A stretch of 64,000 bases of DNA from Streptacidiphilus albus JL83 (lineage in GTDB: Bacteria; Actinomycetota; Actinomycetes; Streptomycetales; Streptomycetaceae), in NCBI RefSeq assembly GCF_000744705.1, contig NZ_JQML01000001.1:1054001-1118000 (forward strand). The letters run 5' to 3'. Positions 13,482 to 61,318 of this stretch are shown piece by piece (position 1 is the first letter of the stretch; the number at the start of each line of letters is the position of its first letter). The position numbers and the translations under genes are program-made. The notes beneath the pieces were generated by a model. It was not told the DNA's origin. It saw only the letters and a program-made list of their open reading frames with translations, and did no database searches.

Positions 13482-13931
13482 AGGATCAGCCAGGCGCAGG
13501 CCGACGACGTTGCAGTTCTGGCCCGGCTGCTGTGGCTGGACACCCACAAAGAGGAGCCGACCCAGCAGTCCGTTGACGCCTTCGCAGCGGAGCTCGCCGA
13601 GTGGTGGGCTCCCCACCAGCACTCGCACCTGGCCTTCGTGGCCCGACTCCTCCCACCCGAGATCGTCGGCATGGCCTGGGTCGCGCTCGTCCCACGCGTG
13701 GCGAGGCCGGGAGCGACAGGTCGGCTGTCTGCCGACATCCAGAGCGTCTTCGTCATGCCGGAACAGCGGGGCCGGGGAATCGGCTCAGCCCTGGTGGAGG
13801 CAGCTTCACAGCATGCGGAACACCTCGGATCCCTTCGCGTGACGGTCCACTCCGGCCGTAGGGCGGTGCCGGTGTACCAGCGGCTGGGATTCGAGTCGTC
13901 CCGGCAGCTCCTCCAGCGACCGCCCGGTTAG
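13479..13931 (+). CDS. GNAT-family N-acetyltransferase
   Basis: 150 residues from GTG 13479. The acetyl-CoA site is QSVFVMPEQRGRGIGSALVEAA, giving the R/Q-x-x-G-x-G/A motif as QRGRGIG; the C-terminal VPVYQRLGFES is the usual motif B. It is a single-domain cytosolic acetyltransferase with unknown substrate. Transcription looks leaderless. It converges on a VOC-family gene 12 bp away. Confidence 0.85.
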   Translation: MRISQAQADDVAVLARLLWLDTHKEEPTQQSVDAFAAELAEWWAPHQHSHLAFVARLLPPEIVGMAWVALVPRVARPGATGRLSADIQSVFVMPEQRGRGIGSALVEAASQHAEHLGSLRVTVHSGRRAVPVYQRLGFESSRQLLQRPPG

Positions 13932-13943
13932 TCGGAGGGGCCG

Positions 13944-14660
13944 TCAGGTCCGGGCGAGCTGGAAGGCGTTGCCCTCGGGGTCGGTGAGCAGCAGCTGCTC
14001 CTGGGACCCGTCCGGCTCGTGAGCCGGCCCGGTTGCGCCGGCCGCCAGCAGCCGGGCCCTTTCGATCGCGGGATCGTCGCCCGCACCAGCCGCGGAGACG
14101 GCGAAGCGCAGCCGGTTGCGGCCCGGACCGGACGCCACCGGCGGGCCCATGACCAGCTGCGGACCGCTGCCGGACGGGTGCCGCAACGCGATCCCCCAGG
14201 CCCCGCGGTCGGTGACCTGCCATCCCGTCGCCGCCTGCCAGAACGCACCCTGGACGGCCACGTCGGCGGCGTCCTGGCAGATCGCGGCAAGGTGCTCCTC
14301 GGCGTCCGGACGTGGCAGGACGCAGAGCTCGTTCCCCTCGGGGTCGGCCAGCACCTCCCACGGCACCGCGCCCTGGCCGATGTCCGCACGGACCGCGCCG
14401 AGGGCGAGCAGCCGGGCCACCTCGGCCGCCTGGTCCGGGCCGGAGGCCAGGTCCAGGTGCAGCCGGTTCTTGTCGGCCTTCGGCACGGTCGTCTGCACGA
14501 ACAGCAGCCGGACACCGTCCGGATCCCCGGGGCCGATGGCCAACGCACCCCCCGGCAGCCCAGGTTCAGCCAGGCTCCAGTCCAGCGCCGCCGCCCAGAA
14601 CTCCGCCTGAGCGGCCGGATCCAGCGCCTCGACCACCACCGCGCTCAGCCTCGTCGACAC
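13944..14660 (-). CDS. Two-domain VOC (glyoxalase/bleomycin-resistance fold) protein
   Basis: 238 residues from GTG 14660, which has GGGAG 8 nt upstream. Two VOC modules are repeated: VVVEALDPAAQAEFWAAALD with LADPEGNELCVLPRP, and a second QGAFWQAATGW with LTDPEGNAFQLART. Each ends in the characteristic DPEGN strand. Such double VOC proteins act as lyases, dioxygenases or drug-sequestering proteins; metal ligands cannot be assigned confidently. A longer upstream frame to 15047 is an artefact of GC bias. Confidence 0.8.
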   Translation of the reverse strand: MSTRLSAVVVEALDPAAQAEFWAAALDWSLAEPGLPGGALAIGPGDPDGVRLLFVQTTVPKADKNRLHLDLASGPDQAAEVARLLALGAVRADIGQGAVPWEVLADPEGNELCVLPRPDAEEHLAAICQDAADVAVQGAFWQAATGWQVTDRGAWGIALRHPSGSGPQLVMGPPVASGPGRNRLRFAVSAAGAGDDPAIERARLLAAGATGPAHEPDGSQEQLLLTDPEGNAFQLART

Positions 14661-47933: not shown

Positions 47934-47938
47934 GCCGA
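47934..47938. repeat. Left copy of the 5-bp target-site duplication (GCCGA)
   Basis: GCCGA directly before the TGTCC left end; the same GCCGA stands at 61235-61239 directly after the right end. Confidence 0.85.
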
Positions 47939-47944
47939 TGTCCC

Positions 47945-48056
47945 GTCCCGGTTGATGTGGTCCACGTCCCAGTCGATCTGGTTCGATCCGCTCGCAGTAC
48001 CACTCGATCTGGTCCATCCGTACGTTCGATAGCCCCCTTCCGCTCGATCTGGTGAA
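47945..48056. repeat. Left-end array of four TnsB-type binding sites
   Basis: 19-bp sites at 47945-47963, 47966-47984, 47997-48015 and 48038-48056, for example GTCCCAGTCGATCTGGTTC, all in one orientation. The conserved core is TCGATCTGGT. Irregular spacing (2, 12 and 22 bp between sites) resembles the protected and spread sites of Tn7-type left ends. Confidence 0.85.
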
Positions 48057-48128
48057 GGTCCCTTCGTTTGACCGGCGGCAGGCGGTCGCGAAGCTTCAAG
48101 CTCGCAGCAGCAGGCTGAGGGTGCGGAG

Positions 48129-48893
48129 GTGTTCGTGGGCGAGCCCCTGAGAGTCCCCCAGGTCGGGGGTGACGTGTCGGATGTCGGCATCTCGTTCGTC
48201 GACGCCGAAGGCGCCGTCCGGTCGGGTTCGCTCGCGGGCTTGTGGAACGAGCCCTTCGAGATGGCTCGCCCAGCGAGAAGGTTCGTTGCGTTCAAGGGGC
48301 AGCGGAACTTCACGGGCGAGTACTGGGCTGCGACGTCGAGGGCTCTGGTGGGCTACGAGTCCTGGGTGGAGCGGGATGCGGTGATGGCGTTGGACTTCGA
48401 GCCGTCGGTCGAAGGGATGGCGTCGCAGCCCTTCCGGCTCGCGTGGAATCAGGACGGGCGGGAGCACGGGCATACCCCGGACTACTTCGCGCGCCTGGCC
48501 GATGGCAGCGGGGTGGTCGTCGATGTCCGCCCGGGGGCATTGGTGGACGAGGAGTCGGCGACGGTCTTCGCGTTCACAGGGCGGGTCTGTGAGGCGGTGG
48601 GCTGGCAGTTTCGACTGGTCGGGGAGCTGGGTGAGCCCTTTCGGTCGAACCTGCGCTGGCTGGCGCGGTACCGGCACTCCCGTTGTCATCGGGTGGAGCC
48701 GGCTGAGGCCCTGCGGGAGGTGTTCGCGGTCCCGCGGGCGCTGTTTGCCGGTGCAGAGCTGGTCGGGGACCGGATCGCGGTCCTGCCCGTGCTCTACCAC
48801 CTTTTGTGGCGGCAGGAACTGATGGTGGATCTGGCATCGGCCCCGCTGGGGGCCGGCAGCTTGGTCTGCGTCACTGGAAGGCGGCGGACGTGA
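48129..48893 (+). CDS. tnsA: TnsA-like transposase endonuclease subunit
   Basis: Up to 254 residues. The nuclease-type residues are in GYESWVERD (Glu), TPDYFARLADGSG (PD) and VVVDVRPG (Asp/Arg), the TnsA-N PD-(D/E)xK-like arrangement. The C-terminal part (DRIAVLPVLYHLLWRQEL) is typical of streptomycete TnsA-like heteromeric transposase subunits. It should cut the 5' ends of the element while TnsB cuts the 3' ends, giving cut-and-paste movement. GTG 48129 is the longest start; GTG 48174, behind GGGGG, is also plausible. The stop overlaps the tnsB GTG by 4 bp. Confidence 0.85.
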   Translation: MFVGEPLRVPQVGGDVSDVGISFVDAEGAVRSGSLAGLWNEPFEMARPARRFVAFKGQRNFTGEYWAATSRALVGYESWVERDAVMALDFEPSVEGMASQPFRLAWNQDGREHGHTPDYFARLADGSGVVVDVRPGALVDEESATVFAFTGRVCEAVGWQFRLVGELGEPFRSNLRWLARYRHSRCHRVEPAEALREVFAVPRALFAGAELVGDRIAVLPVLYHLLWRQELMVDLASAPLGAGSLVCVTGRRRT

Positions 48894-49755
48894 GGTCGGC
48901 AAGGCCGGGGAGGCTCCGGCTGGGGGACCGGATCCGGTTCGAGGGCAGCGTTCACACGGTGGTCGGACTGACCGGAATGAGGGTCCGCCTGGCCGACGAG
49001 CACGGCGGCGGCATGCTGGTCGACCAGGTGCATCTGCAGTCGGCAGTGGACTTCGCGGTGCTGGAGAGCCGGGGGCCGGTCCGGCTGGGCTCATCCGCAC
49101 TCGTTGGGCACCTGCCGAAGGAGGTGGCGGAGCGGGCGCTCTGGTGGCAGCGGCACATGGTCGAGGTGCTGACCGGGCTGGTTCCGGACGCACCCGCAGG
49201 TGTCCGGCCCCGGCCCGAGTACGACCCGTCCTGCCGGTCGCTGGCGGAACGCGAGCGGGCGAAGGCGGTCGAACTGGTCGCGCTGGGCGAAGAGGTCAGC
49301 CCGCGGACGGTCAAGCGGATGCGGCAACGCTACGAGAGCGGCGGCGTCGAGGCCCTGGCGGATCATCGCCTGGTCCCGCACACGACCGTGGCAGGGAAGG
49401 TGGATCAACGGGTCGTGGAGGCGGTGCGGCAGGCCATCGCCGAGAGCGTGAACGCCTCCACCCGCACGATCGAGCACGCCCGGTGGCGGACGGAGCGGAT
49501 CCTGGCCGCCGAGCACGGCGAGGGCGTGGTGGCGATGCCGGCGCGGACCACGTTCTACCGGCTGTTCGGCAAGTTGTCGGGCGGGGTCCACGTGACCGGG
49601 TCTGCCCGCACCCGCCGGTCGCTGGCCGACCAGCCGGAGGGTCCGTTCCGCTACGAGCAGGTCACGGCGCCGGGCGAGCTGATGCAGATCGACTCGACCC
49701 CGCTGGACGTGCTGGTGCGGCTGGACGAGGGGGTGCCGGGCCGGGTCGAGCTATG
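48890..49755 (+). pseudogene. tnsB: 5' part of split tnsB (DDE transposase), with the first catalytic Asp
   Basis: GTG 48890 overlaps the tnsA stop. The frame encodes the DNA-binding N-terminus (LAERERAKAVELVALGEEVS, then TVKRMRQRYESGGVEALADH, HTH domains) and the start of the DDE core: APGELMQIDSTPLDVLVRLD, with the first catalytic Asp at 49691-49693. After GRVEL (about 49750) the frame runs into unrelated sequence. The missing part resumes at about 56843. About 289 residues of intact tnsB sequence lie here. Confidence 0.85.
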
Positions 49756-49773
49756 CGGTCTTTGTGTGCGCTT

Positions 49774-49784
49774 GGTCAGTGACC
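49774..49784. promoter_or_regulatory. Palindrome GGTCAGTGACC near the left end of the inner element
   Basis: Perfect inverted repeat around one central base. Its complement form, GGTCACTGACC, stands at 50290-50300 in the promoter of the first recombinase gene. Possible shared operator or recombinase-binding site. Confidence 0.45.
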
Positions 49785-49839
49785 GGGCTGTCGGTGGGTC
49801 CTGGCACGATGCCTGGACATCGACATCAGGAGAACCATC

Positions 49840-50283
49840 ATGGGCACCTGGGACATCGGCCCCTTCGACAACGACACCGCCGCGGACTTCTCCTACACCT
49901 TGGGCAAGACCGCAGGCGACGAATGTGAGGGCTTCGTCCGCAGCGCACTGATGCGCGCAACTGACACCAAGGCCTACCTCGATGGCAGCGAAGGAGCCGA
50001 AGCCGTAGCCGCGGCTGCTCTGATCGCCGCGCAGTGCTCCGGAGGCGAGCCTGTCAGCCCAGGTTACGGTGCCAAGGATCCCGTCTCGGCTTTCCCTGCC
50101 GATCTGCGGATGCTCGCAGTCGAGGCCCTGAATCGAGTCCTCGCGGAGCACTCCGAACTTGCGGAGCTCTGGGCCGAGGCCAGCGATGGTCTGCGATGGC
50201 GGCAGAGCATCGACCGCCTCCGAGAGATCCTTGATCCTCAGATTCAGCCGCCCGAAGACGTGCTGTTCGAGTCTAAATTGTGA
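49840..50283 (+). CDS. DUF4259 protein (cargo)
   Basis: 147 residues; CAGGAGA precedes ATG 49840. It starts MGTWDIGPFDNDTAADFSYT, the diagnostic N-terminus of DUF4259, with AEALNRVL-type helices after it. DUF4259 proteins are found scattered in bacterial genomes, often beside mobile or defence genes; function unknown. It is the first gene inside the inner element. Confidence 0.8.
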   Translation: MGTWDIGPFDNDTAADFSYTLGKTAGDECEGFVRSALMRATDTKAYLDGSEGAEAVAAAALIAAQCSGGEPVSPGYGAKDPVSAFPADLRMLAVEALNRVLAEHSELAELWAEASDGLRWRQSIDRLREILDPQIQPPEDVLFESKL

Positions 50284-50289
50284 GCGGTC

Positions 50290-50318
50290 GGTCACTGACC
50301 GCGTATGTTGCGCCAGTG
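50290..50318 (+). promoter_or_regulatory. Operator-promoter of the recombinase operon
   Basis: Palindrome GGTCACTGACC (50290-50300), then TATGTT (50304-50309), then 6 nt to GTG 50316. This is a leaderless promoter with a palindrome immediately upstream of the -10 box, suggesting autorepression of the recombinase operon. Confidence 0.5.
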
Positions 50319-51833
50319 AAGCAGAGATCTGCGTGGACGGTGCACTACACCAGCCGCGATGTCGCCCGGCCCGCTGCAATGCTGCCCTGGCTTCGTGACC
50401 TGCCCGAAGAGCTGACACCGTGGCTCGACGAGGCCGGGCTGCCCGATGGGCTGCCGTTCCTGCTGTCGCCTCGATACGAGTACGACGTGGTGCTCAACTC
50501 GTACTTCCATCGGGTGAACCTGATCGACGCGCCGTGGAACAGCAACGCCAACCGGGCCCGGGCACTGGCGGGGTTCTTGAACTTCCTGCACGGCGCGCGG
50601 GGCGGGAAGTCGTGGCGGCACGCCACTGAGGGCGACCATCTGGCGTTCCATCAGTGGCGGCGCCGGGACCCGGCCGGGCCCAGGGTGGCGGGCGGGACGT
50701 GGAGCCAGGAGGTCTCGCACGTCAACCAGTTCTTCGAGTGGGCCGTGCGGCAGGGCCAGATCGGAGCGGTCCCGATCCCGCACCGCTCCCGCAGGCCGGC
50801 GCCGCTGGGCACACTGCAGGCAGCCCGCGCCGAGGGCACGGTTCCGGCGACCTACGCGCACGACGAGGGCGGCGAGCGCATCGAGTGGCTCCCGCCGGCG
50901 TCCTACCGGCTCTGGCGGGACGTGGGCCTGCGCGGCTACGGGCCCGACGGCCTGCCCTCGGGCCGGTTCAAGGGCCGCTGGTCGGCGCGCAATGCGACGT
51001 TCACCGACCTGATGGCCCGCACCGGGATGCGGTTGTCCGAGCAGGCGAGTCTGACCGCGACGGAGATGCAGTTGCAGGTGGGGGCGGGTGGCTACCAGCG
51101 GTTCTGGTTGCCGGGGGCGATCGCGAAGTACTTCTCCGCGCGCTGGGTCTACGTCCCGCACAGCGTGGTGCGCGACCTGGCGGCCTACGCGGACCTGGAC
51201 CGGGCCGAGGTCGTCCAGGACGCCCGTGCCGCCGGGCGCTACGACCGCTGGCGCAGACCACTGGTGGTCGACGACCCGTCACGACCCCACCTGGTGCGGA
51301 CCGTGGGAAGTGTCGAGCGGCGGAGGGTGAACCTGCGCGAGCTCAAGCCGATGGAACGGCGACGGCTGCTGGTGGAGAGCGCGGACGGCCTGGAGCCGGC
51401 GATGTTCTGGCTCGGCGAGGACGGGCAGCCGCTGGCGGTGTCGACCTGGAAGAGCGTCTTCGCGGACGCCAACCAGCGCTGCCGCGACCACGGGGTGGCG
51501 CTGACCTGCCACGCCCACCTGCTGCGTCACGGGTTCGCCGTGGTGACCCTCGAACAGCTGCAGCGCGGCCACATCGCGGCGCTGGCCAGCCTTGACCCGG
51601 CCCAGCGCGGCCACTACACCCGGATCTTCGGGGACCCGTTGGACTGGGTCCGCCGCAGATTGGGCCACCGGTCAGTCCTGACCACGGCCATTTACCTACA
51701 CGCCCTGCAAGAACTGGAGATGGAGACCCGGATGGCGCTGGTCCCCGACACCTGGGAGGACCCCAGGGACACCCCGATCCAGCGGATCGGCGACGACACA
51801 CCGCCGGTCAGCGTGGTCGGGGCGGCCGGATGA
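50316..51833 (+). CDS. Tyrosine recombinase (first of the trio)
   Basis: 505 residues from GTG 50316 (leaderless promoter). The catalytic set is complete: Arg in ARTGMRLSEQASL (residue 239), HLLRH (about 401-405), GHRS (about 450) and the nucleophile Tyr in TTAIYLHAL (residue 460). An N-terminal SAM-like core-binding domain is present (WNSNANRARALAGFLNFLHG). It cuts and rejoins DNA through a 3'-phosphotyrosine. The stop overlaps the next start by ATGA. Corresponds to TnpA/RitA-type proteins. Confidence 0.85.
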   Translation: MKQRSAWTVHYTSRDVARPAAMLPWLRDLPEELTPWLDEAGLPDGLPFLLSPRYEYDVVLNSYFHRVNLIDAPWNSNANRARALAGFLNFLHGARGGKSWRHATEGDHLAFHQWRRRDPAGPRVAGGTWSQEVSHVNQFFEWAVRQGQIGAVPIPHRSRRPAPLGTLQAARAEGTVPATYAHDEGGERIEWLPPASYRLWRDVGLRGYGPDGLPSGRFKGRWSARNATFTDLMARTGMRLSEQASLTATEMQLQVGAGGYQRFWLPGAIAKYFSARWVYVPHSVVRDLAAYADLDRAEVVQDARAAGRYDRWRRPLVVDDPSRPHLVRTVGSVERRRVNLRELKPMERRRLLVESADGLEPAMFWLGEDGQPLAVSTWKSVFADANQRCRDHGVALTCHAHLLRHGFAVVTLEQLQRGHIAALASLDPAQRGHYTRIFGDPLDWVRRRLGHRSVLTTAIYLHALQELEMETRMALVPDTWEDPRDTPIQRIGDDTPPVSVVGAAG

Positions 51834-53803
51834 ACCGGCAGGGACGCGGCAGCACCGGCCCCGGCCGGCCCTCCGCTCTGCCGGAGCACGGCTACGAGCC
51901 GCCAGCGCCGGTGCGCGAACTGCCGGACGGGCGACTGCTGGTGGCCTTCCACGGCGACGACGACCGCCGCCGGGTCTTCGACGTCTCCAAGCTGCCGCTG
52001 CCCGGCTGGCATCAGACCCTGGCCGCAGCGGTTGCCCAGCGCACCGGGCCCGACGGCGGCCTTCGCACCTTCTCCGCCGCGACCACCGGCTGGGGATCAC
52101 TGGGCCGCCTGGTGCGGTTTCTGGGATCACTGCCGCAGCCCCCGCTCGACCCGGCCCAGCTCACTCCCGCGCATCTGCAAGCCTTCTACGACCACCGGGC
52201 CAAGACCACGCCGACCACGGCCCTGCACGACATGAACGAGGTCAGGCTGCTGTTCGCCCTGCCCGCGTTGCGCGACCGGGTCTCCACCGAGGTCCTGGAC
52301 CACATCCAGCGGCGCCTGCCCGCGCCCCGTGACGCGAAGGCCCCGGCCACCGGCACCGGCCCCTCGCCGTCCGGGATCGGCACCAAGCGGCTGACCACGG
52401 GTTTCTCCGATGGAGAACTTGCCCGACTCCTGGCCGCGCTGCGGGCGGACGCCGCCAAGATCCGCGACCGCGTCCGGGCGGGCGAGGGCCTGCTCCGGCG
52501 CTATCGGGCCGACCCCGGGGCGCTGAACGAGCAGGACCAGGGGTTGGGGCAGGCACTGGAATGGATGGCCGCCCCCGGACAGCTGCCGCCACCGCCGGGA
52601 GCCGAGCCCCATCCGTTCTCCTCGGACCGCCGGGAGTTGGCGGGGAACCTGTTCCTGACGCTGCGGGACCTGGCGCCGCTGATGATGCTCGCCGCCGCAC
52701 TCTCGGAGCGCAACGGAGAGACGATCAAAGAGCTGCCGGTCCGGCACCGGGTGCTGGAGGACCGTGCGGTCGAGCTGGTCATCGTCAAACGACGCCGCGG
52801 TGCGCGGCGCTGGTTCGAGACCGTGACCTGGGAGATCGGGGCACCGGGTCGTGAACTGCACACCCCGGGCGGGTTCTACCTGCTGATGCTGGAGCTGACC
52901 GCCCGCAGCCGCGAGCGATGCGGCTCGCCGCACCTGTGGTGCGTCTGGCGCGACGGCCAAGCGGCCAGGCTCGGAGCCGCCGACGACTACATCGCCCCGT
53001 TCCAGGACTCGTTGAGCTGCACCGCGATCCTGCCCACCGCCTGGGCGGCGAACCGGCTCCGACCACTGCTGGCCGACCCCCAGCCCGCTGCTGTCGGGCC
53101 TGACAGTCCGTCACCGACGGAGCCCACCGGGGGGCTGCCGCTTCAGGTCAGCTTCAACCGGATCAAGACGAGCATGGAGGTGCGGCGCACGAAGCGAATG
53201 GGCGGTCACCTGCCCTCGGCCGCCAAGTCCAACAGCATGCCGGTCCTGTTCCGGAACTACCTCAGCGGCGACCCGGTGATCACCGCTTGGGCGGAGGAAG
53301 TCCTCGGCGAGGCCCTCCTGGATGCCGAACAGGCCGCACGTCAGGCGCACGAGCGAGCAGTCCAGGCCGCCGGCGGAGGCCCACGCGTCCTGCCCGGACC
53401 CGTCGACACCACAGTCATGGAGACAAGCGGCCTCGATCCCGAAACCGCCCGCCAGGTCGCCGACGGGGAACTGGACACCGGCTGGACGGCCTGCGTCGAC
53501 CTCGACCAGCACCCCCTCACCGGGGAAACGTGCCAGGTCACCTTCCTCGCCTGCTTCCACTGCGGCAACTGCCTGGTCACCCGCGACCACCTGCCGCGCC
53601 TTCTGGCTCTGCTCGACGCGCTGACGCAGCGCCGCCGCGAACTGCCCGAAGACGTCTGGTGGCCACGCTACGGGCCGGCCTGGGTCGCCGTCCGCCAGGA
53701 CATCCTCGCGAAATTCACCCCCGCCGAACTCCAACACGCCCAGGCCGACAAACCGCACGACGCGCTCCTGGACCTGGTCGAGAACCCCTGGGAACTGCCA
53801 TGA
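51830..53803 (+). CDS. Divergent tyrosine-recombinase-family protein (second of the trio)
   Basis: 657 residues, ATG overlapping the previous stop and TGA overlapping the next ATG. A core-binding N-terminal domain (FSAATTGWGSLGRLVRFLG) and a degenerate catalytic part are visible: ALSERNGETIKELPVRHR in place of the R box and RTKRMGGHLPSAAKSNSMPV followed by LFRNYLSGD. I cannot find a clear RHRY set. A C-terminal CFHCGNC-type motif may bind zinc. It resembles the large TnpB/RitB-type partners that work with the other recombinases. Confidence 0.65.
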   Translation: MNRQGRGSTGPGRPSALPEHGYEPPAPVRELPDGRLLVAFHGDDDRRRVFDVSKLPLPGWHQTLAAAVAQRTGPDGGLRTFSAATTGWGSLGRLVRFLGSLPQPPLDPAQLTPAHLQAFYDHRAKTTPTTALHDMNEVRLLFALPALRDRVSTEVLDHIQRRLPAPRDAKAPATGTGPSPSGIGTKRLTTGFSDGELARLLAALRADAAKIRDRVRAGEGLLRRYRADPGALNEQDQGLGQALEWMAAPGQLPPPPGAEPHPFSSDRRELAGNLFLTLRDLAPLMMLAAALSERNGETIKELPVRHRVLEDRAVELVIVKRRRGARRWFETVTWEIGAPGRELHTPGGFYLLMLELTARSRERCGSPHLWCVWRDGQAARLGAADDYIAPFQDSLSCTAILPTAWAANRLRPLLADPQPAAVGPDSPSPTEPTGGLPLQVSFNRIKTSMEVRRTKRMGGHLPSAAKSNSMPVLFRNYLSGDPVITAWAEEVLGEALLDAEQAARQAHERAVQAAGGGPRVLPGPVDTTVMETSGLDPETARQVADGELDTGWTACVDLDQHPLTGETCQVTFLACFHCGNCLVTRDHLPRLLALLDALTQRRRELPEDVWWPRYGPAWVAVRQDILAKFTPAELQHAQADKPHDALLDLVENPWELP

Positions 53804-55884
53804 CCACAGCCCTGCGGGTCCTGCCCGCCCCCGCCTCCCCACAGCCCCGGGCCGACGGAAGCGATCCGTTCGTCTTCCATGGCCGACGTCTGCGCGCGGG
53901 TTGGGCGTTGGAGGAAACCTCGCGCTTCAGCGACGACGTCTGGAACCTGGGCCAGGCGATGCTCAAGAAGCACGAGCGCCGGTTCATCCTCGACTTCACC
54001 CTGATCCCCGCCGCTCACCGGCAGGTCGCCAAGGAACTGTGCTACGCGATGCTCTCGGGAACCGTCCCGGCGGCCGAGACCCGGCCGGCGGTCGGCACCG
54101 TCCGCACCGCCTTCACCCAGTACGTCCGGTTCCTGCGCTGGGCGGCCGACCGCGCTCCGCGCCTGGACGCCCTGACCGGCAACGACCTTGAGGACTTCCA
54201 GCGCTTCCTGGTCAAGACCCTGCCGACTTCCGGCGCCCGGCAGGGCGCCCGCGCCGGAGTGCGCAAATTCTGGCTCTGGCGAGACGTCCTTCCCTCGGGA
54301 GCTCTGCGGTTCGATCCGAAGCACATCGACGGCTGGACCGAGCCGACCCACGGCGCCTACGAGAACGCCACCGCCCGCATCCCGGAAGAAGTCCTCGGTC
54401 CGCTGTTCGTCTGGGCGATGCGATTCATCGACGAGTTCTCCACCGACATCGTCGCCGCGGACCGTCAATGGCGAACCCCGCCCCCGTCATCGACGGAACT
54501 CCACACATACGGCCACCTGCAGATTCTGCTGCGAGCCTGGCTGGACGAGCGCATCGCGGCAGGAGAACCGCTTCCCGCCTGGCGAGGCAAGACCAGCACG
54601 ACCGCGATCGCGGACGCGCTGGGCCGCAACCGGATCTCCCTCGCCCGCTACGGGCACATGATCGACCAGGCCGCCGCCATCGTGGGGACCACTCCCCAGA
54701 CGATCAGCGACGAACCGATCCTCGCCCGGCTCGACGGCGAGCCGTGGATCGCGGTGATCCTGGCCGACCACACCGAACGCGACAGCCTCGCCGCACTCGC
54801 CCGCCTGCTGCAGGACGCCTGCTACCTGGTCCTTGCCTTCCTCTCAGGCGCTCGCGACAGCGAGATCAAGCACCTGAAGCGCGGCAACCTTACAACCGAA
54901 CGCGACGCGGACGGCACCACCTACCGCTGGAAGATGCACAGCCTGGCCTTCAAGGCCGAGGACGACCCCGCCGGCGTCCCGGCCACCTGGAACATCGGCG
55001 AACCCGCAGCCCGGGCCATCGCCATCCTCGAACGGCTGCAACCACCCGGCACCGACTACCTCTTCGCCCGCCTGGAGCACAGCCCCGGCGTCAAGCCCGA
55101 CGCCATCAGCCAGGTCCTGACCAGTGGGACCACCAACGCCCGCCTGAACGCCTTCGCCACCTGGGTCAACGACTACTGCCGCCGCCACAGCCGCACCGAC
55201 GGCATCCCCCTGGTCAACCAGCAGCCCTTCCACCTGAAAAACAGCCAGTTCAGGCGCACATTGGCCTGGTTCATCGCACGCCGTCCCGGCGGCGTCATCG
55301 CCGGCGCCCTGGCCTATCGGCACCACTGCATCCAGGTTTTCGAAGGATACGCAGGCACCAGCGAGTCGGGATTCCGCGCCGAAGTCGAGAGCGAGCAGGC
55401 CCTGGCCCGCGGCGAGCACCTCATGGCCGCGATCGACGCCCACGAGCACACCCAGCTCACCGGCCCCGCAGCCGAGGAGGCCGCCCGCCGCCTGGAGAGC
55501 CTCGGCGAACGCGCCCGCTTCCAGGGCACCGTCGTCCTGGACGACAACCGGCTGCGGCGACTCATGGCCAAGCACGACCCGGCCGTCTATCCCGGCCAGT
55601 ACATCACCTGCGTCCACGACCACGCCAAGGCCCTGTGTGAACGCGCCCGCCACCGCCGCAGCGAAGGACTCCCCGACCACGGCGGCTGCAAGCCCCTGGC
55701 CTGCCGAAACGTCGCCCTCACTCCCGAGAACACCGCCGCCTGGCAACGCGAGATCGACCGCATCACCCGCCGCCTGGCCACCCGCCCGACCCTGCCACCA
55801 CTCCTACGGCACCGACTGGAAGCCCGCCGCACCGAGATCACCGCATTCCTGACGGAGAACACCACCACCCAGGAGTCCGCGTGA
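53800..55884 (+). CDS. Large tyrosine recombinase (third of the trio)
   Basis: 694 residues from ATG 53800 (ATGA overlap). The integrase fold is recognisable from LVLAFLSGARDSEIKHLKRG (Arg 352), the second box QFRRTLAWFIARRP (about 483-496) and AYRHHCIQVFEGYAGTSESG with the probable nucleophile Tyr at 517. N-terminal core-binding domain RTAFTQYVRFLRWAADRAP. A long C-terminal tail with Cys/His (VHDHAKALCERAR; HGGCKPLACRNV) may bind metal or DNA. Matches TnpB/RitC-type large recombinases. Confidence 0.8.
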   Translation: MTTALRVLPAPASPQPRADGSDPFVFHGRRLRAGWALEETSRFSDDVWNLGQAMLKKHERRFILDFTLIPAAHRQVAKELCYAMLSGTVPAAETRPAVGTVRTAFTQYVRFLRWAADRAPRLDALTGNDLEDFQRFLVKTLPTSGARQGARAGVRKFWLWRDVLPSGALRFDPKHIDGWTEPTHGAYENATARIPEEVLGPLFVWAMRFIDEFSTDIVAADRQWRTPPPSSTELHTYGHLQILLRAWLDERIAAGEPLPAWRGKTSTTAIADALGRNRISLARYGHMIDQAAAIVGTTPQTISDEPILARLDGEPWIAVILADHTERDSLAALARLLQDACYLVLAFLSGARDSEIKHLKRGNLTTERDADGTTYRWKMHSLAFKAEDDPAGVPATWNIGEPAARAIAILERLQPPGTDYLFARLEHSPGVKPDAISQVLTSGTTNARLNAFATWVNDYCRRHSRTDGIPLVNQQPFHLKNSQFRRTLAWFIARRPGGVIAGALAYRHHCIQVFEGYAGTSESGFRAEVESEQALARGEHLMAAIDAHEHTQLTGPAAEEAARRLESLGERARFQGTVVLDDNRLRRLMAKHDPAVYPGQYITCVHDHAKALCERARHRRSEGLPDHGGCKPLACRNVALTPENTAAWQREIDRITRRLATRPTLPPLLRHRLEARRTEITAFLTENTTTQESA

Positions 55885-56297
55885 GCCGCCCCGCCGACGT
55901 CCCCGCCGAGCCACACGTCCGCCGCGTCCTGGACCAGTACGTCAACGAGTGCCACGACAACGGCACCCGCCCCAGCGTCCTGGCCCTGGCAGCGAAGTTC
56001 GACCTGAGCAACACCACCTTCCGCCGACACTTCCCCGACCTGGCCAAGGAAGTCTCCGCCGCCCGCTCCAGGCCGTCACCCTGCCCCACGGCCGAGATGC
56101 GGCCCAGCCCCTACGAAGTCCTCGCCGCCCGAAACGCCAAACTCCGCCGCGCCAACCGGATGCTGAACGAAAACCTCCAGTTCGCAGCCGCCCAGATCCA
56201 GCGACTGGCCGTCGACAACGCCCGTCTGCGCGAAGCCCTGGAAGCCATCAGCGACGTCACCCACATCAACCGAGCCAGCCACCCTGGCCACCGATGA
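55881..56297 (+). CDS. TnpC/DUF6262-like accessory protein of the recombinase trio
   Basis: 138 residues; GTG overlaps the previous stop (GTGA). N-terminal helix-turn-helix (SVLALAAKFDLSNTTFRRHF) and a coiled coil (AKLRRANRMLNENLQFAAAQ, IQRLAVDNARLREALEAI). Small proteins of this layout follow the recombinases in Tn554-like elements and affect frequency or orientation of insertion. Function is inferred from layout and position. Confidence 0.7.
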   Translation: MSRPADVPAEPHVRRVLDQYVNECHDNGTRPSVLALAAKFDLSNTTFRRHFPDLAKEVSAARSRPSPCPTAEMRPSPYEVLAARNAKLRRANRMLNENLQFAAAQIQRLAVDNARLREALEAISDVTHINRASHPGHR

Positions 56298-56337
56298 CGA
56301 TCCCCTGTGACGACGACAGGTCCTGCTGAAACTGCCG

Positions 56338-56784
56338 CTACTTGTTGAACCCGCGGGACGGACTGAGGAGTTTACGCGCTTCCACTCGAACGGCATCGTC
56401 CGCGTCCAGTGTCAGCTCCTCCAACTGCGAGACCAGCTGGCTCTCGCCGGTCTCGGTCATCCAGCGGAGATCGCCCATGATCGCCGAGTAGAGATGATCC
56501 ACGGTTGAGGGCTCCGGAAACGACGGCTCCCGGGAACGGGCAAATGCGGCCAGGACCAAGCGCAACCCATAACTGTCCTGACGCTGCAGAAGAGCATTGG
56601 CTGTCCCCTGGGTGACGCCGGTGTCGTGAAGGTCCAGCAGGAGTTGCTGCAGGATCTCAGCCATCCCAGGAGCCTCCGCGTCGACAGCCAGTCGCCGCCC
56701 AGCAGCCACCCTGACGGACCACGACGCGGAGTCGGCATCCTGAACCGCAGTACTCAACTCGTCACTGATCTCGCTGGGGGCCAT
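56338..56784 (-). CDS. HEAT-like hypothetical protein (cargo)
   Basis: 148 residues from ATG 56784 (MAPSEISDELSTAVQDADSA). Helical-repeat composition (SWSVRVAAGRRLAVDAEAPG; QLEELTLDADDAVRVEARKL), similar in style to small Streptomyces HEAT-domain proteins. It is transcribed against the recombinase genes and fills the right end of the inner element. Function unknown. Confidence 0.6.
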   Translation of the reverse strand: MAPSEISDELSTAVQDADSASWSVRVAAGRRLAVDAEAPGMAEILQQLLLDLHDTGVTQGTANALLQRQDSYGLRLVLAAFARSREPSFPEPSTVDHLYSAIMGDLRWMTETGESQLVSQLEELTLDADDAVRVEARKLLSPSRGFNK

Positions 56785-56842
56785 GGCCCCACTGTCGCAC
56801 AGGGCCCTGCGGTCAACGGTCAGCTCAGAACTACGTCCACAA

Positions 56843-58085
56843 CGGCCTGGTCGACATCGCCACCCGGACCATCGTCGCCGCAGTGCTGCGGCCGACGACG
56901 AAGTCGGTGGACGCTTCCCTGCTGCTGGCCCGCGCGCTGACGCCGGAACCGATGCGGCCCGGCTGGGCCGACGCACTGCGGATGTCCCGCTCGGTGCTGC
57001 CGCACCGCAGGCTGCTGACGCTGGACGAGCGGCTGGAGCACGCCGCGGCCCGACCGGTGATCATCCCGGAGATGATCGTCTGCGACCGGGGCAAGGCGTT
57101 CATCTCGGACAACTTCCGGGCCGCCTGCCGAAGTCTGGAGATCACCTTCCAGCCCTGCCACCCCCGCTCACCTGCGGAGAAGCCCCACATCGAGCGGACC
57201 CTGGAATCGGTGGCCACAATGTTCTGCCAGTTCCTGCCCGGCTACCTGGGCCGCACCGCCGAGCACCGGGGCCGCCGGGCCGAGGACGAACCACTGTGGT
57301 CAATGCAAGAGATCCAGGAGTTCCTGGACGAATGGATCATCGCGAAGTGGCAAACACGCCGCCACGACGGTCTGCGGGACCCTGGCACCCCCGGCCGGAC
57401 CTTCTCGCCGAACGAGAAGTACGCGAGGCTCATCGAGAGCGCCGGCTACGTCCCCCTTGCCCTGTCAGGCGACGACTACGTCGAGCTCCTGCCCGCGACC
57501 TGGCGGGCCGTCAACTCCTACGGCATCAAAATCAACCACCGGATCTACGACTGCACCGACCTCGGGCCCCTGCGCCGCCAGCCCTCCGGGATCACCCTCA
57601 AGAGGAACCTGTGGGAAGTCCACCGGGACCCCTATGACGCCAGCTGGATCTGGGTCCGCAGCCACTGGGACGGCAACGGCTGGCTTCCCGTCCCCTGGAA
57701 GCACCTGGGCAGCGTCCCACAGCCGTTCGGCGACCTGGCCTGGGACCACGCCGCTGCCGACCTACGCCGCAGCGGCCTACCCGACCCCACCGAGGCGGAG
57801 ATCGCCCAGGCAGTCTCCTCACTGCTGGTCCGGGCCGCCCAGGGCCCGGACCACGGGAGCAAGGCACGGACGCCCCGGCCGTCGCAGCGGGACCTCCGCG
57901 TTGCCGGCCGGACCCGGGCCGCCGCACAGAACCCGAACCTTGGTCCGCCTCGACCCGAGCCAGCCGCAGCTATCGAGCCGGACCCGGACGGCCAGGGCGA
58001 GCCCGGCCCGCAGGACGAGCCGGTCGCGAAGGTGATCCCGCTCGGCGTCTTCGACCCCTTCAAGGAGGCTGACACCCGATGGTGA
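56843..58085 (+). pseudogene. tnsB: 3' part of split tnsB, with second Asp and Glu of the DDE triad
   Basis: The frame resumes with NGLVDIATRTIVAAVLRPTT and continues the transposase core: MIVCDRGKAFISDNFRAACR (catalytic Asp at 57084-57086) and CHPRSPAEKPHIERTLESVA (catalytic Glu at 57177-57179). A C-terminal beta-barrel (WRAVNSYGIKINHRIYDC; EVHRDPYDASWIWVR) and an acidic tail that would contact the ATPase follow. It has no start of its own except an internal GTG at 56883. Joined to 48890-49755 it gives a TnsB of about 700 residues. The stop overlaps tniB by 7 bp. Confidence 0.85.
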
Positions 58086-59092
58086 CCGCCCACGACCCCG
58101 CACTCGTGACCGACGACCGCCAGCAGCCCGACTGGCGCCAGTCGCTGGACCAGGCGGACCTGCAGCGCTACCTCACCACTCTGGAGGGCTGGCGCGACTT
58201 CACCCGACAAGACCCGGTCCCACCCGAACTGCTGACCGCCGCCATCCTGACCAGCCTTACTCCGGACGAGCAAGCGGACTACGACGACGTGCGGCTGGAC
58301 CACCACACCCGGCTGACCGTCGCCGCGACCTCGACGCTGCGGCAGGTCGTCCTCACCGGCCGGCGGCTGATCCTGCTGAACCGGCATGCGATCAGCGCCC
58401 GCCGGGGCCTGATCCTGTCCGGACCGGCCGGCACCGGCAAGACGACCGCGCTCACCCAGTTCGGCAAGACCATCGAAGCCATCGACCAGCGCCGACACCC
58501 CGGAGTCGCAGGGCGGATCCCGGTCGTCTACGTCACCGTCCCACCTGCCGCTACCTCGCGCGTGGTCGCCGTGGAGTTCGCCCGCTTCCTCGGCCTGCCC
58601 GTCACCGCCCGCGCGAACATCACCGACGTCATCGAGGCCGTCTGCGGGGTGCTGATCGATGCGAGCGTCACCGCGGTCTGCGTCGACGAGCTCCACAACT
58701 TCTCTCTGGCGACCCGCAACGGCGCGGAGGTCTCCGACACGCTCAAGTACTTCTCCGAGCGCATCCCCGCCACCTTCGTCTATGCCGGAATCGATCTGGA
58801 GGCGAACGGCCTGTTCAACGGCACTCGGGGCCGCCAGATCGCCGGGCGCTTCGGGATGATCGAGACCGTCCCCTTCCCCCACACCGACGAATGGACCGGC
58901 CTGGTCGCCACCCTGGAACAGGCCCTGCGATTGCACAAGCACCGGCCCGGCACCCTGGAGGGACTGGCCCACTACCTGCACCAGCGCACCGGCGGCATGA
59001 TCGGCTCGCTCTCCCACCTCATCCGAGGGGCCGCCATCGACGCGATCCTGGACGGCACCGAGAAGATCACCCGCGCCTCGTTGCAAGAGTGA
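58079..59092 (+). CDS. tniB: TniB/TnsC-type AAA+ ATPase of the transposon
   Basis: 337 residues. Walker A GPAGTGKTT (about residue 115), Walker B VCVDELHN (about 200), sensor-type YAGIDLEANGLF and GRQIAGRF. N-terminal region RLDHHTRLTVAATSTLRQVV is typical of TniB. It regulates the transposase and connects it to the TniQ target selector. The ATG lies inside the end of tnsB. Confidence 0.88.
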   Translation: MVTAHDPALVTDDRQQPDWRQSLDQADLQRYLTTLEGWRDFTRQDPVPPELLTAAILTSLTPDEQADYDDVRLDHHTRLTVAATSTLRQVVLTGRRLILLNRHAISARRGLILSGPAGTGKTTALTQFGKTIEAIDQRRHPGVAGRIPVVYVTVPPAATSRVVAVEFARFLGLPVTARANITDVIEAVCGVLIDASVTAVCVDELHNFSLATRNGAEVSDTLKYFSERIPATFVYAGIDLEANGLFNGTRGRQIAGRFGMIETVPFPHTDEWTGLVATLEQALRLHKHRPGTLEGLAHYLHQRTGGMIGSLSHLIRGAAIDAILDGTEKITRASLQE

Positions 59093-59135
59093 AGCTCGAT
59101 CGCGCGGCCCAAGAGCGGAAGCGGAACCCAGACTC

Positions 59136-59633
59136 ATGACCCTCCACGGCGGGACTGTCCGCCAACTGCCTTTCCAGGTCCGGCCGCGAGCCGGTGAGGG
59201 ATTCCGCTCCTTCGCGAGCCGCCTGGCCCAGGCCAATCACCTCCCTTTCCCGCTCCTCATGTCGTTCCTGCGCCAGTGCCCCGGGCGAGAAGTCCTCCCG
59301 TGGACGCCTCTGGCAGCGGTGACCGGCCGCGATCCGGATCTACTCAGGCAGCTGCTGGAGACCGTGAACTGCCGCAAGTGCGGCACCCCGATGCCACCCA
59401 CAGGCGCCCTCGGCCGCAGAGCCGTCTACTGCTCGGCGCGTTGCCTGAGGCTTGTCCGCATGGCCCGCGTTCCCCTCGCCGCTCAGCGCCAGCAGCCCTG
59501 CTGGACCTGCGGGACACCAACCAATGTCCGCCCCGGCCAGCGGCGCATCCTCTGTTCCTCCGACTGCCGACGGACTGCCGGCCTGGAACGACGACGCGAC
59601 GACGGCCAGCCCAGGCAACGGCGGAAACGCTAG
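59136..59633 (+). CDS. Short TniQ-like protein with two zinc knuckles
   Basis: 165 residues. The N-terminal part is TniQ-like: RPRAGEGFRSFASRLAQANH followed by a helix with PLLMSFLRQCPGREVLPW. It then carries two Cys sets, CRKCGTP..YCSARC and CWTCGTP..LCSSDC, each able to bind zinc. The C-terminus is basic (ERRRDDGQPRQRRKR). It is much shorter than ordinary TniQ and looks like a DNA-binding target-selection accessory. Confidence 0.7.
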   Translation: MTLHGGTVRQLPFQVRPRAGEGFRSFASRLAQANHLPFPLLMSFLRQCPGREVLPWTPLAAVTGRDPDLLRQLLETVNCRKCGTPMPPTGALGRRAVYCSARCLRLVRMARVPLAAQRQQPCWTCGTPTNVRPGQRRILCSSDCRRTAGLERRRDDGQPRQRRKR

Positions 59634-59968
59634 TTGTCGCTGAACTCCTCGGCGAGGATCTCCACCTCGCTCGGACCAATGATGGTCAGCCACTGGAGCA
59701 CACAGCGGTTGTTGTGGTGCTGCAGGAGATGGCGAGCCTCGGCTGGCCACGGGCCATGTTGGGGCAGCTCCCGCACGACGACTTCGTCCACGAAATCGCA
59801 ATCCGGGCCGGAGAAGTCGGCTCTCGCATGCAAGACACCCACGAGGCGCAGAGTCGCACCAGCACTCTTCGACCTCAGCTGGATGACCGCCTCGCTGGGC
59901 TGCAGATCGGTCCGGATGACGACCGATTCCAACCAGTGGAAGTGGTCGCGCAGTGCTTCAAGGGTCAC
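59630..59968 (-). CDS. Hypothetical protein (cargo between the two TniQ genes)
   Basis: 112 residues from GTG 59968. TACTGT (59980-59975) ends exactly 6 nt before it, giving a leaderless mRNA. The start reads TLEALRDHFHWLESVVIRTD; the rest is alpha/beta with no known motif (LVGVLHARADFSGPDCDFVD). It overlaps the end of the short TniQ gene by 4 bp on the opposite strand. Unknown function; codon use matches the host. Confidence 0.55.
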   Translation of the reverse strand: MTLEALRDHFHWLESVVIRTDLQPSEAVIQLRSKSAGATLRLVGVLHARADFSGPDCDFVDEVVVRELPQHGPWPAEARHLLQHHNNRCVLQWLTIIGPSEVEILAEEFSDN

Positions 59969-60047
59969 GGCGGAACAGTATCCCGAGCGTCCACAACCGC
60001 CCCGCTCAGAGCAGCGTCCATCCTGAACCGCTATCGGAGCCCTCACC

Positions 60048-61058
60048 ATGCCTCGGTCACACCGACAGTTGCCTTGCTCGGTCCCCCTCTTCCACGACGA
60101 AACCCTGAACTCCCTGATTCGGCGGCTGGCTGCCGCCAACTACCTCAGCGGAGAAGACCTCCGCGCCTACCTCGGAATCGGTAGGAAGACCCCCGTCATC
60201 GAGATCCTCGAACCGCTCGCCCTCGCCATGGGCAAACCGGCCCCCAGCCTGCACCTCGCCCTCCCCGAGTTCATGCAGGTCCCGCTCAGCAGCACGCCAC
60301 CAGACGACCCTCCAGGGCACTTCGGCCGCCCACTTCCAGGAGATTTGCCCCGCTGCTTGAAACGCCCCGCCTGCCGCCGCTGCGTCCAGGCCGCCGGCAT
60401 CAGATCCGAGGTCATCTGCTGGAGCACGCACGAACGCAACGTCTGCCTGCGCCACTACCTCTGGACTGGCGGCGAGTGCCTGCGAGCGGAGGACCAGGTC
60501 GATGTCAGCATCCTGCCGGGCACTGCCCGCGCTCAGCGCCACCACCGCAACCTGATCACTCGTCATGGCCGACGCTGGGTGCGGAATGCCTTTCCCGACG
60601 CCCGCTCCATCTTTCTCCACTGGATCCAGGAGCTGACCGCCGATCCGTTCAACATCATCGCTCGCAGCTCGCAGCACCTGCTCGGGCAGAACGGTGAACC
60701 CGCACCGGCTGAAACGGCGCTGGCGATCCTCTTCCACCCTCAGATCATCACCCTCACCGGCCTCATGGCCAGCTCCTGCTGGGAGCGCAACACCGCACAG
60801 ACCAGCACGATCCTCTACCTGGTCGAGGAGGTCACCTACCGGGATATCCTTCTCGGCTATTTCCCGAAGGACAGGACGGATCCCCTGGTCAAATGGACAG
60901 ATCGGTACGTCTCGGCGCACAAGTTCGCAGCCTCAAGTGGGAGGTGGAGTGTCTTCAGCACCCTCTTCCCCGAAGAGACCGTGCTGCCATCACCTCGCGC
61001 CGGTGCCAAGCGCAAGAGGCAGACCATCCGCTCCGGCCCTCTGCGCTACGGTCCATAG
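60048..61058 (+). CDS. tniQ: TniQ family target-selection protein
   Basis: 336 residues from ATG 60048. TniQ N-terminal domain VPLFHDETLNSLIRRLAAAN, then LPRCLKRPACRRCVQAAGI and CWSTHERNVCLRHYLW (zinc-ribbon Cys/His typical of TniQ/TnsD). The C-terminal half is helical. In Tn7-like elements TniQ/TnsD binds the target DNA and recruits the ATPase. It is the last gene before the right-end sites. Confidence 0.8.
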   Translation: MPRSHRQLPCSVPLFHDETLNSLIRRLAAANYLSGEDLRAYLGIGRKTPVIEILEPLALAMGKPAPSLHLALPEFMQVPLSSTPPDDPPGHFGRPLPGDLPRCLKRPACRRCVQAAGIRSEVICWSTHERNVCLRHYLWTGGECLRAEDQVDVSILPGTARAQRHHRNLITRHGRRWVRNAFPDARSIFLHWIQELTADPFNIIARSSQHLLGQNGEPAPAETALAILFHPQIITLTGLMASSCWERNTAQTSTILYLVEEVTYRDILLGYFPKDRTDPLVKWTDRYVSAHKFAASSGRWSVFSTLFPEETVLPSPRAGAKRKRQTIRSGPLRYGP

Positions 61059-61092
61059 CCCAGCCGCCCAACACCGCGGAGCATCCAGCTCA

Positions 61093-61228
61093 GACCAGAT
61101 CGACCGGGACGAGCACCACCAAACGGACCCGCCGAACCAGATCCAGTGGGATTTCAACCCCGCTGCTGTCCCAGTCGATTTGGTCGCCGCAGGTCAGCAC
61201 ACCCAGCGCGGACCAGATCAACTGGGAC
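61093..61228. repeat. Right-end array of four TnsB-type binding sites
   Basis: Sites at 61093-61110 (GACCAGATCGACCGGGAC), 61134-61152, 61168-61185 and 61211-61228 (GACCAGATCAACTGGGAC). They are inverted relative to the left-end sites, except the third (GTCCCAGTCGATTTGGTC), which faces the other way. Confidence 0.85.
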
Positions 61229-61234
61229 AGGACA

Positions 61235-61239
61235 GCCGA
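61235..61239. repeat. Right copy of the 5-bp target-site duplication (GCCGA)
   Basis: GCCGA directly after the right end ..GGGACAGGACA; identical to 47934-47938. Confidence 0.85.
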
Positions 61240-61272: not shown

Positions 61273-61318
61273 GCCATCGAAGTTTGATCACCAGTAGGTT
61301 CCTGCCATCGAAGTTTGA
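61273..61318. repeat. Two direct repeats GCCATCGAAGTTTGA of a second transposon
   Basis: Perfect 15-bp copies at 61273-61287 and 61304-61318, 31 bp apart, directly before a tnsA fragment. They have the spacing of transposase-binding sites but a sequence unrelated to the sites of the 13.3-kb element, so they mark the left end of another element, which may begin with TGTCCTGTGACAG near 61244. Confidence 0.7.

Follow-up and report, generated by a model that had tools for sequence, protein, structure and literature searches.

What interrupts the transposase gene tnsB of a Tn7-like transposon in the actinobacterium Streptacidiphilus albus JL83, and is the interruption an isolated accident or the work of an element that seeks out this gene? 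The locus lies in a stretch of 64,000 nucleotides (NCBI RefSeq assembly GCF_000744705.1, contig NZ_JQML01000001.1, forward-strand positions 1,054,001 to 1,118,000), hereafter the window, in which position 1 is the first letter. An initial annotation of the letters alone had placed at 49756–56848 a nested mobile element with three overlapping recombinase-type genes, a tnpC-like gene and two cargo genes, splitting tnsB between its catalytic DDE residues. That reading is borne out: these coordinates are the exact outer edges of two 6-bp cores flanking an element with exact ends, and all of the named genes were found, the operon genes with 4-bp overlaps. The insert is very probably a transposon of the SE/GInt/Tn554 type, site-specific and driven by tyrosine recombinases; it would belong to an actinobacterial lineage that has its attachment site in the stretch of tnsB encoding the catalytic core. 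The features of the interruption are as follows, labels of the form L0xx or L1xx denoting loci compared in this analysis.

48806–49755, + strand: 5' part of tnsB, with the first DDE Asp (49691–49693); Pfam and reading frame
49756–49761, + strand: left 6-bp core CGGTCT; boundary fixed from L085, where CTTGGG flanks the element left and right
49762–56842: inserted element (7,081 bp), splitting tnsB of the outer Tn7-like transposon
49762–49785, + strand: left end, motif C TTGTGTGCGCTTGGTCAGTGACCG; the same motif stands at the operon in L085, L040, L042, L047 and L088
56818–56842, − strand: right end, motif C' TTGTGGACGTAGTTCTGAGCTGACC; pattern scan and junction comparison
56843–56848, + strand: right 6-bp core CGGCCT; junction comparison
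56849–58085, + strand: 3' part of tnsB, with the second Asp (57084) and the Glu (57192); Pfam and reading frame

The TnsB reading stops after GRVEL (near 49750) and picks up again at NGLVDIATRT, placing the interruption between the first DDE codon (GAC at 49691) and the second and third (GAC at 57084, GAG at 57192). When 7,087 bp are taken out (the element plus one core), the joined flanks form a single open tnsB frame of 730 codons. The ends of the element are imperfect inverted repeats (TTGTG...). The left-end motif, of the form TTGTG...GGTCAnTGACC, is also found further upstream of the operon in L041 and L087, and its simple pattern was absent from the remaining trio loci scanned (the trio being the three recombinase-type genes TR1, TR2 and TR3). 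All six tnsB insertions described below carry the right end, ggtca..ggtca....CACAA, as do the comM-inserted relatives L040 and L047. Patterns derived from the two ends of the window element matched the window twice and once, respectively, versus no match in 100 shuffles each. The recurrence of end pattern and junction is not due to chance, and the same junction in five other loci is more telling than the shuffles. The 6-bp length of the core is fixed by L085, whose 7,341-bp element has CTTGGG on either side and whose joined flanks are in frame. In the window the left and right cores are one base apart and both fit tnsB coding sequence, from which we infer that the previous site of this element was also a tnsB.

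Loci carrying the trio were collected by similarity to TR3 or TR3-tnpC, not by tnsB. Among 32 such loci compared with the window, tnpC is 62–86% identical in five (in L101 over 82 residues only), the next value being 53%. All six loci of the resulting clade (the window, L039, L053, L085, L099 and L101, of which L085 and L101 are two Streptomyces plasmids) have their element in tnsB at the same point, and the five relatives share the right junction of the window, in which the right-end pattern is followed by a 6-bp core and tnsB. The right cores differ among the six insertions, except for CATCGC, which is common to L039 and L099. In the TR3 tree, the five tnsB loci with a usable TR3, including the window, form one clade with support of 100/99 (L053 covers 30% of the columns). 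The interrupted genes are far more diverse, tnsB of L085 being 26% identical to that of the window versus 80% for TR3. When 5 interrupted and 23 intact rows are placed in one tnsB tree, without L099 (38 residues of tnsB) and with L085 and L101 coming out as sisters, four label changes are needed, all four forced by well-supported branches; an earlier tree without L101 also needed four, two of them forced. Because 23 of the 28 rows are intact, these changes, which could be gains or losses, are read as gains of the insertion.

The initial annotation had raised specificity for the conserved tnsB core, as something that would guarantee spread on other transposons, and had called for a search for the trio in other tnsB genes; the five further loci have their ends at the same point and none far from it. 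The lineage is thus target-specialised on the part of tnsB that encodes the catalytic core, and Tn7-like transposons are apparently the hosts of a hyperparasite. Directly after the core, all six loci read TSGAY, which includes the Asp codon in the strand following the first catalytic Asp. This codon is broadly conserved in tnsB generally (23 aligned genes), so TSGAY after the core is no proof of target recognition. L102 and L056, with TR3 tail fragments of 72% and 68% identity and tnpC at 49–50%, are not at tnsB and were not counted in the clade. About 7 kb from the trio of L056, on the opposite strand, there is a distantly tnsB-like stretch (26%). A class-wide TR3 search of 394 genomes at E ≤ 1e-180 returned the window only, and at most 6 of the 275 TR3-bearing plasmid records were inspected. 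A phage origin was rejected: a search of 50,697 phage records at E ≤ 1e-5 gave nothing for TR3, and viral contigs gave one distant TR3 match, at 29% identity.

A natural gap in tnsB at this position was likewise rejected, on the uninterrupted genes. In addition to the interrupted copies, 26 other tnsB loci were found, of which 23 were aligned (two pairs being near-identical copies) and L011, L012 and L013 were omitted for low similarity. All 23 aligned genes are continuous across the insertion point, which settles the alignment check proposed by the initial annotation, and the tnsB genes of L011 and L013, inspected separately, are also continuous.

The insert itself carries the following features.

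49840–50283, + strand: cargo gene, DUF4259 (PF14078, E 1.8e-32)
50278–50301, + strand: left-end motif, second copy, internal, where the recombinase operon starts
50280–51833, + strand: TR1, tyrosine recombinase, IntA-like, 517 amino acids (PF00589, E 2.3e-8)
51830–53803, + strand: TR2, degenerate recombinase-like protein, Tfp/GinC-like, 657 amino acids (residues, weak profile match to TR3)
53800–55884, + strand: TR3, large recombinase, IntB/TnpB-like, 694 amino acids (active-site residues)
55881–56297, + strand: small TnpC/Srap/GinD-like protein (position, size, and weak coiled-coil and helix-turn-helix hits below cut-off)
56338–56784, − strand: second cargo open reading frame, 148 amino acids (no Pfam, NCBIfam or PHROGs match)

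TR1, TR2, TR3 and the TnpC-like gene form a four-gene operon in which each gene overlaps the next by 4 bp. TR1, the only one of the four proteins that Pfam recognises as an integrase, has a full active site (R251, H413, R416, H463 and Y472), unchanged across all 21 aligned rows. At the position expected for the first Arg, TR2 has Asn295 in all 21 rows; it retains Tyr477. In TR3 the residues R352, R485, H508 and Y517 are invariant in 22 of 22 rows. One of the profile searches against the PDB gave 0 hits and the other gave 3, the best of which (E 0.0084) covered a short N-terminal part of an entry for a phage integrase. Cargo flanks the operon on both sides, with DUF4259 before it and the 148-residue frame after it. 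The DUF4259 gene is enclosed by the two copies of the left-end motif (49762–49785 and 50278–50301), its stop codon lying within the inner copy, and L087 and L041 similarly show an outer left-end motif, other genes ahead of the operon and a partial inner copy. These paired motifs around cargo suggest that elements may acquire cargo when a tandem insertion is followed by a deletion. In a genome of the same genus (L065), a DUF4259 gene at 13806–14219, 50% identical to the window cargo gene, has a Tn7-like transposon without interruption nearby.

Several observations weigh against this account of the insert. At the left junction, the three bases before the core (49753–49755) are ATG, which stands there in 0 of the 23 intact tnsB genes, 17 of which have GAC. 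As a result, the joined frame of the window contains a CTA codon and has Cys where most intact tnsB genes have Thr; post-insertion drift or a wrongly placed core boundary could explain this. The left junction is visible in just two of the six tnsB loci (the window and L085). As for the proteins, TR3 lacks the box-II His, which is not conserved in the 22 rows, and TR2 is tied to the recombinase fold solely via its weak profile match to TR3 (E 0.0023, probability 12%); a single-sequence structure model of TR2 was uninformative (mean predicted local distance difference test score 40.2, predicted template modelling score 0.27), and hhalign gave no significant match between TR1 and TR2 or between TR1 and TR3. 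TR2 and TR3 matched no recombinase family in Pfam, NCBIfam or PHROGs, and none of the four operon proteins matched a Tn554, GInt or SE family there, the presence of such models in these collections being unchecked.

Among known systems, which are cited here from parts of the respective papers, the closest in layout are the SEs, described there only from Gammaproteobacteria (PMC9345347, PMC10214605). As in SEs, an ordinary recombinase that keeps the RHRY motif (TR1, 21 of 21 rows), a degenerate protein of putative recombinase fold, a large recombinase and a small protein follow one another in overlapping order, and imperfect inverted ends, a 6-bp spacer, a split attB that is kept and a few preferred targets are also shared. 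In SEs the large recombinase has the RHRY motif as well; here it keeps R352, R485, H508 and Y517 and lacks the box-II His. SE-6945 in E. coli targets yjjNt or insJ of IS3, itself a transposase gene (PMC9345347, PMC10214605), and the main text of PMC10214605 makes no mention of tnsB. GInts, whose ginABCD genes encode three recombinases and GinD (PMC5385486), resemble the window element, on layout alone, in having three recombinases with a TnpC-like protein, site-specificity and cargo, and they have a circular form (PMC5385486). They differ in that the third GInt protein lacks the first Arg, whereas here TR2 lacks it and TR3 keeps R352 (22 of 22 rows), and in that the window element has cargo on both sides of the operon. 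GInts have imperfect direct repeats of 10–11 nt at their borders; at the two borders here, 5 of 6 core bases match, with little similarity beyond. A term search found no tnsB in the main text of PMC5385486.

Tn554 has TnpA, TnpB and TnpC and no counterpart of Tfp, whereas here an extra degenerate recombinase-like gene lies between the two recombinase genes. Tn554-related actinobacterial elements, found in Streptomyces and Rhodococcus, have a very long recombinase next to a shorter one, in many cases with TnpC as well (PMC3414803). They are described as a pair with a shorter partner of about 350 amino acids (PMC3414803), whereas here TR1 has 517 and the degenerate TR2 stands in between; some of these elements may be of the same kind, with the middle gene unrecognised. 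Tsy elements, with a recombinase, a helix-turn-helix protein, a TnsF-like protein and in some a GIY-YIG nuclease, are similar in being recombinase transposons with a second, target-selecting recombinase and in inserting into comM (PMC10293859), as relatives of the window trio do; their gene content differs, and the parts of PMC10293859 covered mention no tnsB target. RIT elements also have three overlapping recombinase genes, of 315–410 amino acids and all with the catalytic Tyr (PMC10214605), whereas the genes here encode 517, 657 and 694 amino acids, with one protein degenerate and a tnpC in addition. By this comparison, Actinomycetota seem to have the SE-type layout that has been reported for Gammaproteobacteria. 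On the kinship argued from layout, residues and ends, the insert is filed as one that probably works like an SE rather than as a proven SE. Insertion into tnsB is not mentioned in the titles and abstract openings among the papers listed from an open-access library. The locus offers a clean natural case of one mobile element specialising in another's transposase gene, and its exact ends and repeated insertions at one point make target choice directly testable.

More distant trios with a determined target were found at comM in seven loci and at dprA in one. Both are competence (DNA-uptake) genes. In L040, L043, L044, L045 and L047 the trio splits comM at residue 365 and both halves were found; in L051 and L054 it lies in reverse orientation beside a comM 5' part ending at residue 366, the 3' part not being found; and in L062 it splits dprA. 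No tns gene was found adjacent to these trios. The family overall may thus live off genes for DNA movement or uptake, and the tnsB- and comM-targeting lineages are a ready pair for finding which recombinase sets the target. The two cores of the comM insertion in L047 differ (GGTCGG and GCTCGC), which fits the logic of a target-derived left core and a donor-derived right core. The comM insertion point is about 40 residues past the LFLDE motif (counted on the L089 protein), which we take to be Walker B. In L047 (6504–13362), a further insert of about 6.9 kb interrupts TR3 of the comM-inserted trio directly behind the catalytic Arg motif (LSGMRDSE) and seems by eye to encode another recombinase-like protein.

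By analogy with SEs, the recombinases would join the ends of the element into a circle with a 6-bp spacer, and the circle would recombine with tnsB across the 6-bp core. After insertion the left 6 bp would be those of the target and the right 6 bp those of the donor; in published SEs, likewise, the target supplies the left 6 bp, and the right 6 bp stem from the site occupied before (PMC10214605, PMC9345347). TR2 and/or TR3 would read the conserved tnsB arm beside the core; our guess for the target reader is TR2, by analogy with the inactive TnsF of Tn6022 (PMC10293859). The element would move from tnsB to tnsB, sterilising each host transposon, which would then decay. That this lineage uses Tn7-like transposons as landing pads, sterilises them and copies itself onward, with the right 6 bp as a record of the last tnsB, is a proposal to which we give about an even chance.

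What the insertion means for its host depends on the outer transposon, which comprises the following features in addition to the two parts of tnsB.

47939–61234, + strand: outer Tn7-like transposon, 13,296 bp including the insert (TGT...ACA ends)
47941–48053, no strand assigned: four TnsB-binding-like 21-bp repeats, left end (repeat search)
48129–48893, + strand: tnsA (PF08722, E 3.7e-4, below the curated cut-off)
58079–59092, + strand: tnsC, TniB ATPase (PF05621, E 1.8e-13)
59136–59633, + strand: TniQ-like, short (PF06527, E 0.0011, below cut-off)
60048–61058, + strand: TniQ-like (PF06527, E 1.7e-4, below cut-off)
61091–61227, no strand assigned: right-end TnsB-binding-like repeats, in inverted orientation to those on the left (repeat search and end scan)

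TGT/ACA ends and a 5-bp target duplication are hallmarks of Tn7-like transposons. The duplication is GCCGA, at 47934–47938 and 61235–61239, and in the stretches scanned this was the sole TGT/ACA pair with at least 4 of 5 flanking bases matching, at 5 of 5. With tnsA, tnsB, tnsC and tniQ between such ends, the outer element is Tn7-like, even though its TnsA, rve and TniQ scores fall under the curated Pfam cut-offs and only TniB lies over. Its tnsA is 49–53% identical to those of L007, L008 and L010 and 28–34% identical to those of L011 and L013.

The initial annotation had suggested a genetic switch, in which reversible, precise excision would restore tnsB and reactivate the outer transposon. 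The joined frame open over 730 codons would allow this, as would an outer transposon that looks otherwise intact, with its ends and target duplication, and GInts are described as leaving an empty attB in some strains and not in others (PMC5385486). Against a switch, SEs, which have the same gene order and end type and whose circle is of one strand, are described as circularising without leaving an empty site (PMC9345347, PMC10214605), and tnsB is damaged in all four other loci that could be judged, being truncated in L053 and L085 and frameshifted in L039 and L101 (with sequencing error possible in any of these); in L099 the contig ends inside tnsB. This damage makes the usual outcome look like one-way inactivation, and we consider a switch improbable. 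It is less likely still that the recombinases belong to the Tn7-like transposon itself, serving it as a resolvase or a TnsF-like selector of targets, and lie in tnsB by chance. The idea has a precedent in TnsF, the target selector of Tn6022, which is an inactive tyrosine recombinase with a homologue in Tsy (PMC10293859), but the insert has its own ends and cores, intact tnsB genes are without it, related trios lie at comM or in dprA with no tns gene found adjacent, and trios with the same ends occur outside Tn7-like transposons, for which reason this candidate was rejected.

A single ancient insertion, inherited with diverging tnsB genes rather than arising by repeated targeting, would account for the trios forming one clade; L085 and L101, as tnsB sisters, could share one event, and the four label changes may in principle include losses. 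However, the interrupted tnsB genes are scattered among intact ones in the tnsB trees, the cores of L039, L053 and L085 differ, and TR3 is much better conserved than tnsB between L085 and the window (80% versus 26%); such inheritance was rejected from the trees and is very unlikely. An assembly artefact, in favour of which nothing was found, can practically be dismissed, the window lying within one 9.9-Mb contig and the same junction recurring in other genomes and two plasmids. The evidence thus favours repeated, site-specific insertion of a recombinase transposon into tnsB. In the window the outer transposon is the best preserved among the insertions that could be judged, and its insertion is probably recent.

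The claim that the outer transposon is immobile unless the inner element excises overlooks help in trans. A second tnsB, about 6 kb beyond the outer transposon, might give such help, though it is only 51% identical to the split one. This uninterrupted gene (L060, G000:C1:1121597-1122718) belongs to a further tnsABC set a few kb past the window, and a tnsA-like stretch (43% identity) begins at 61315, just beyond the outer transposon.

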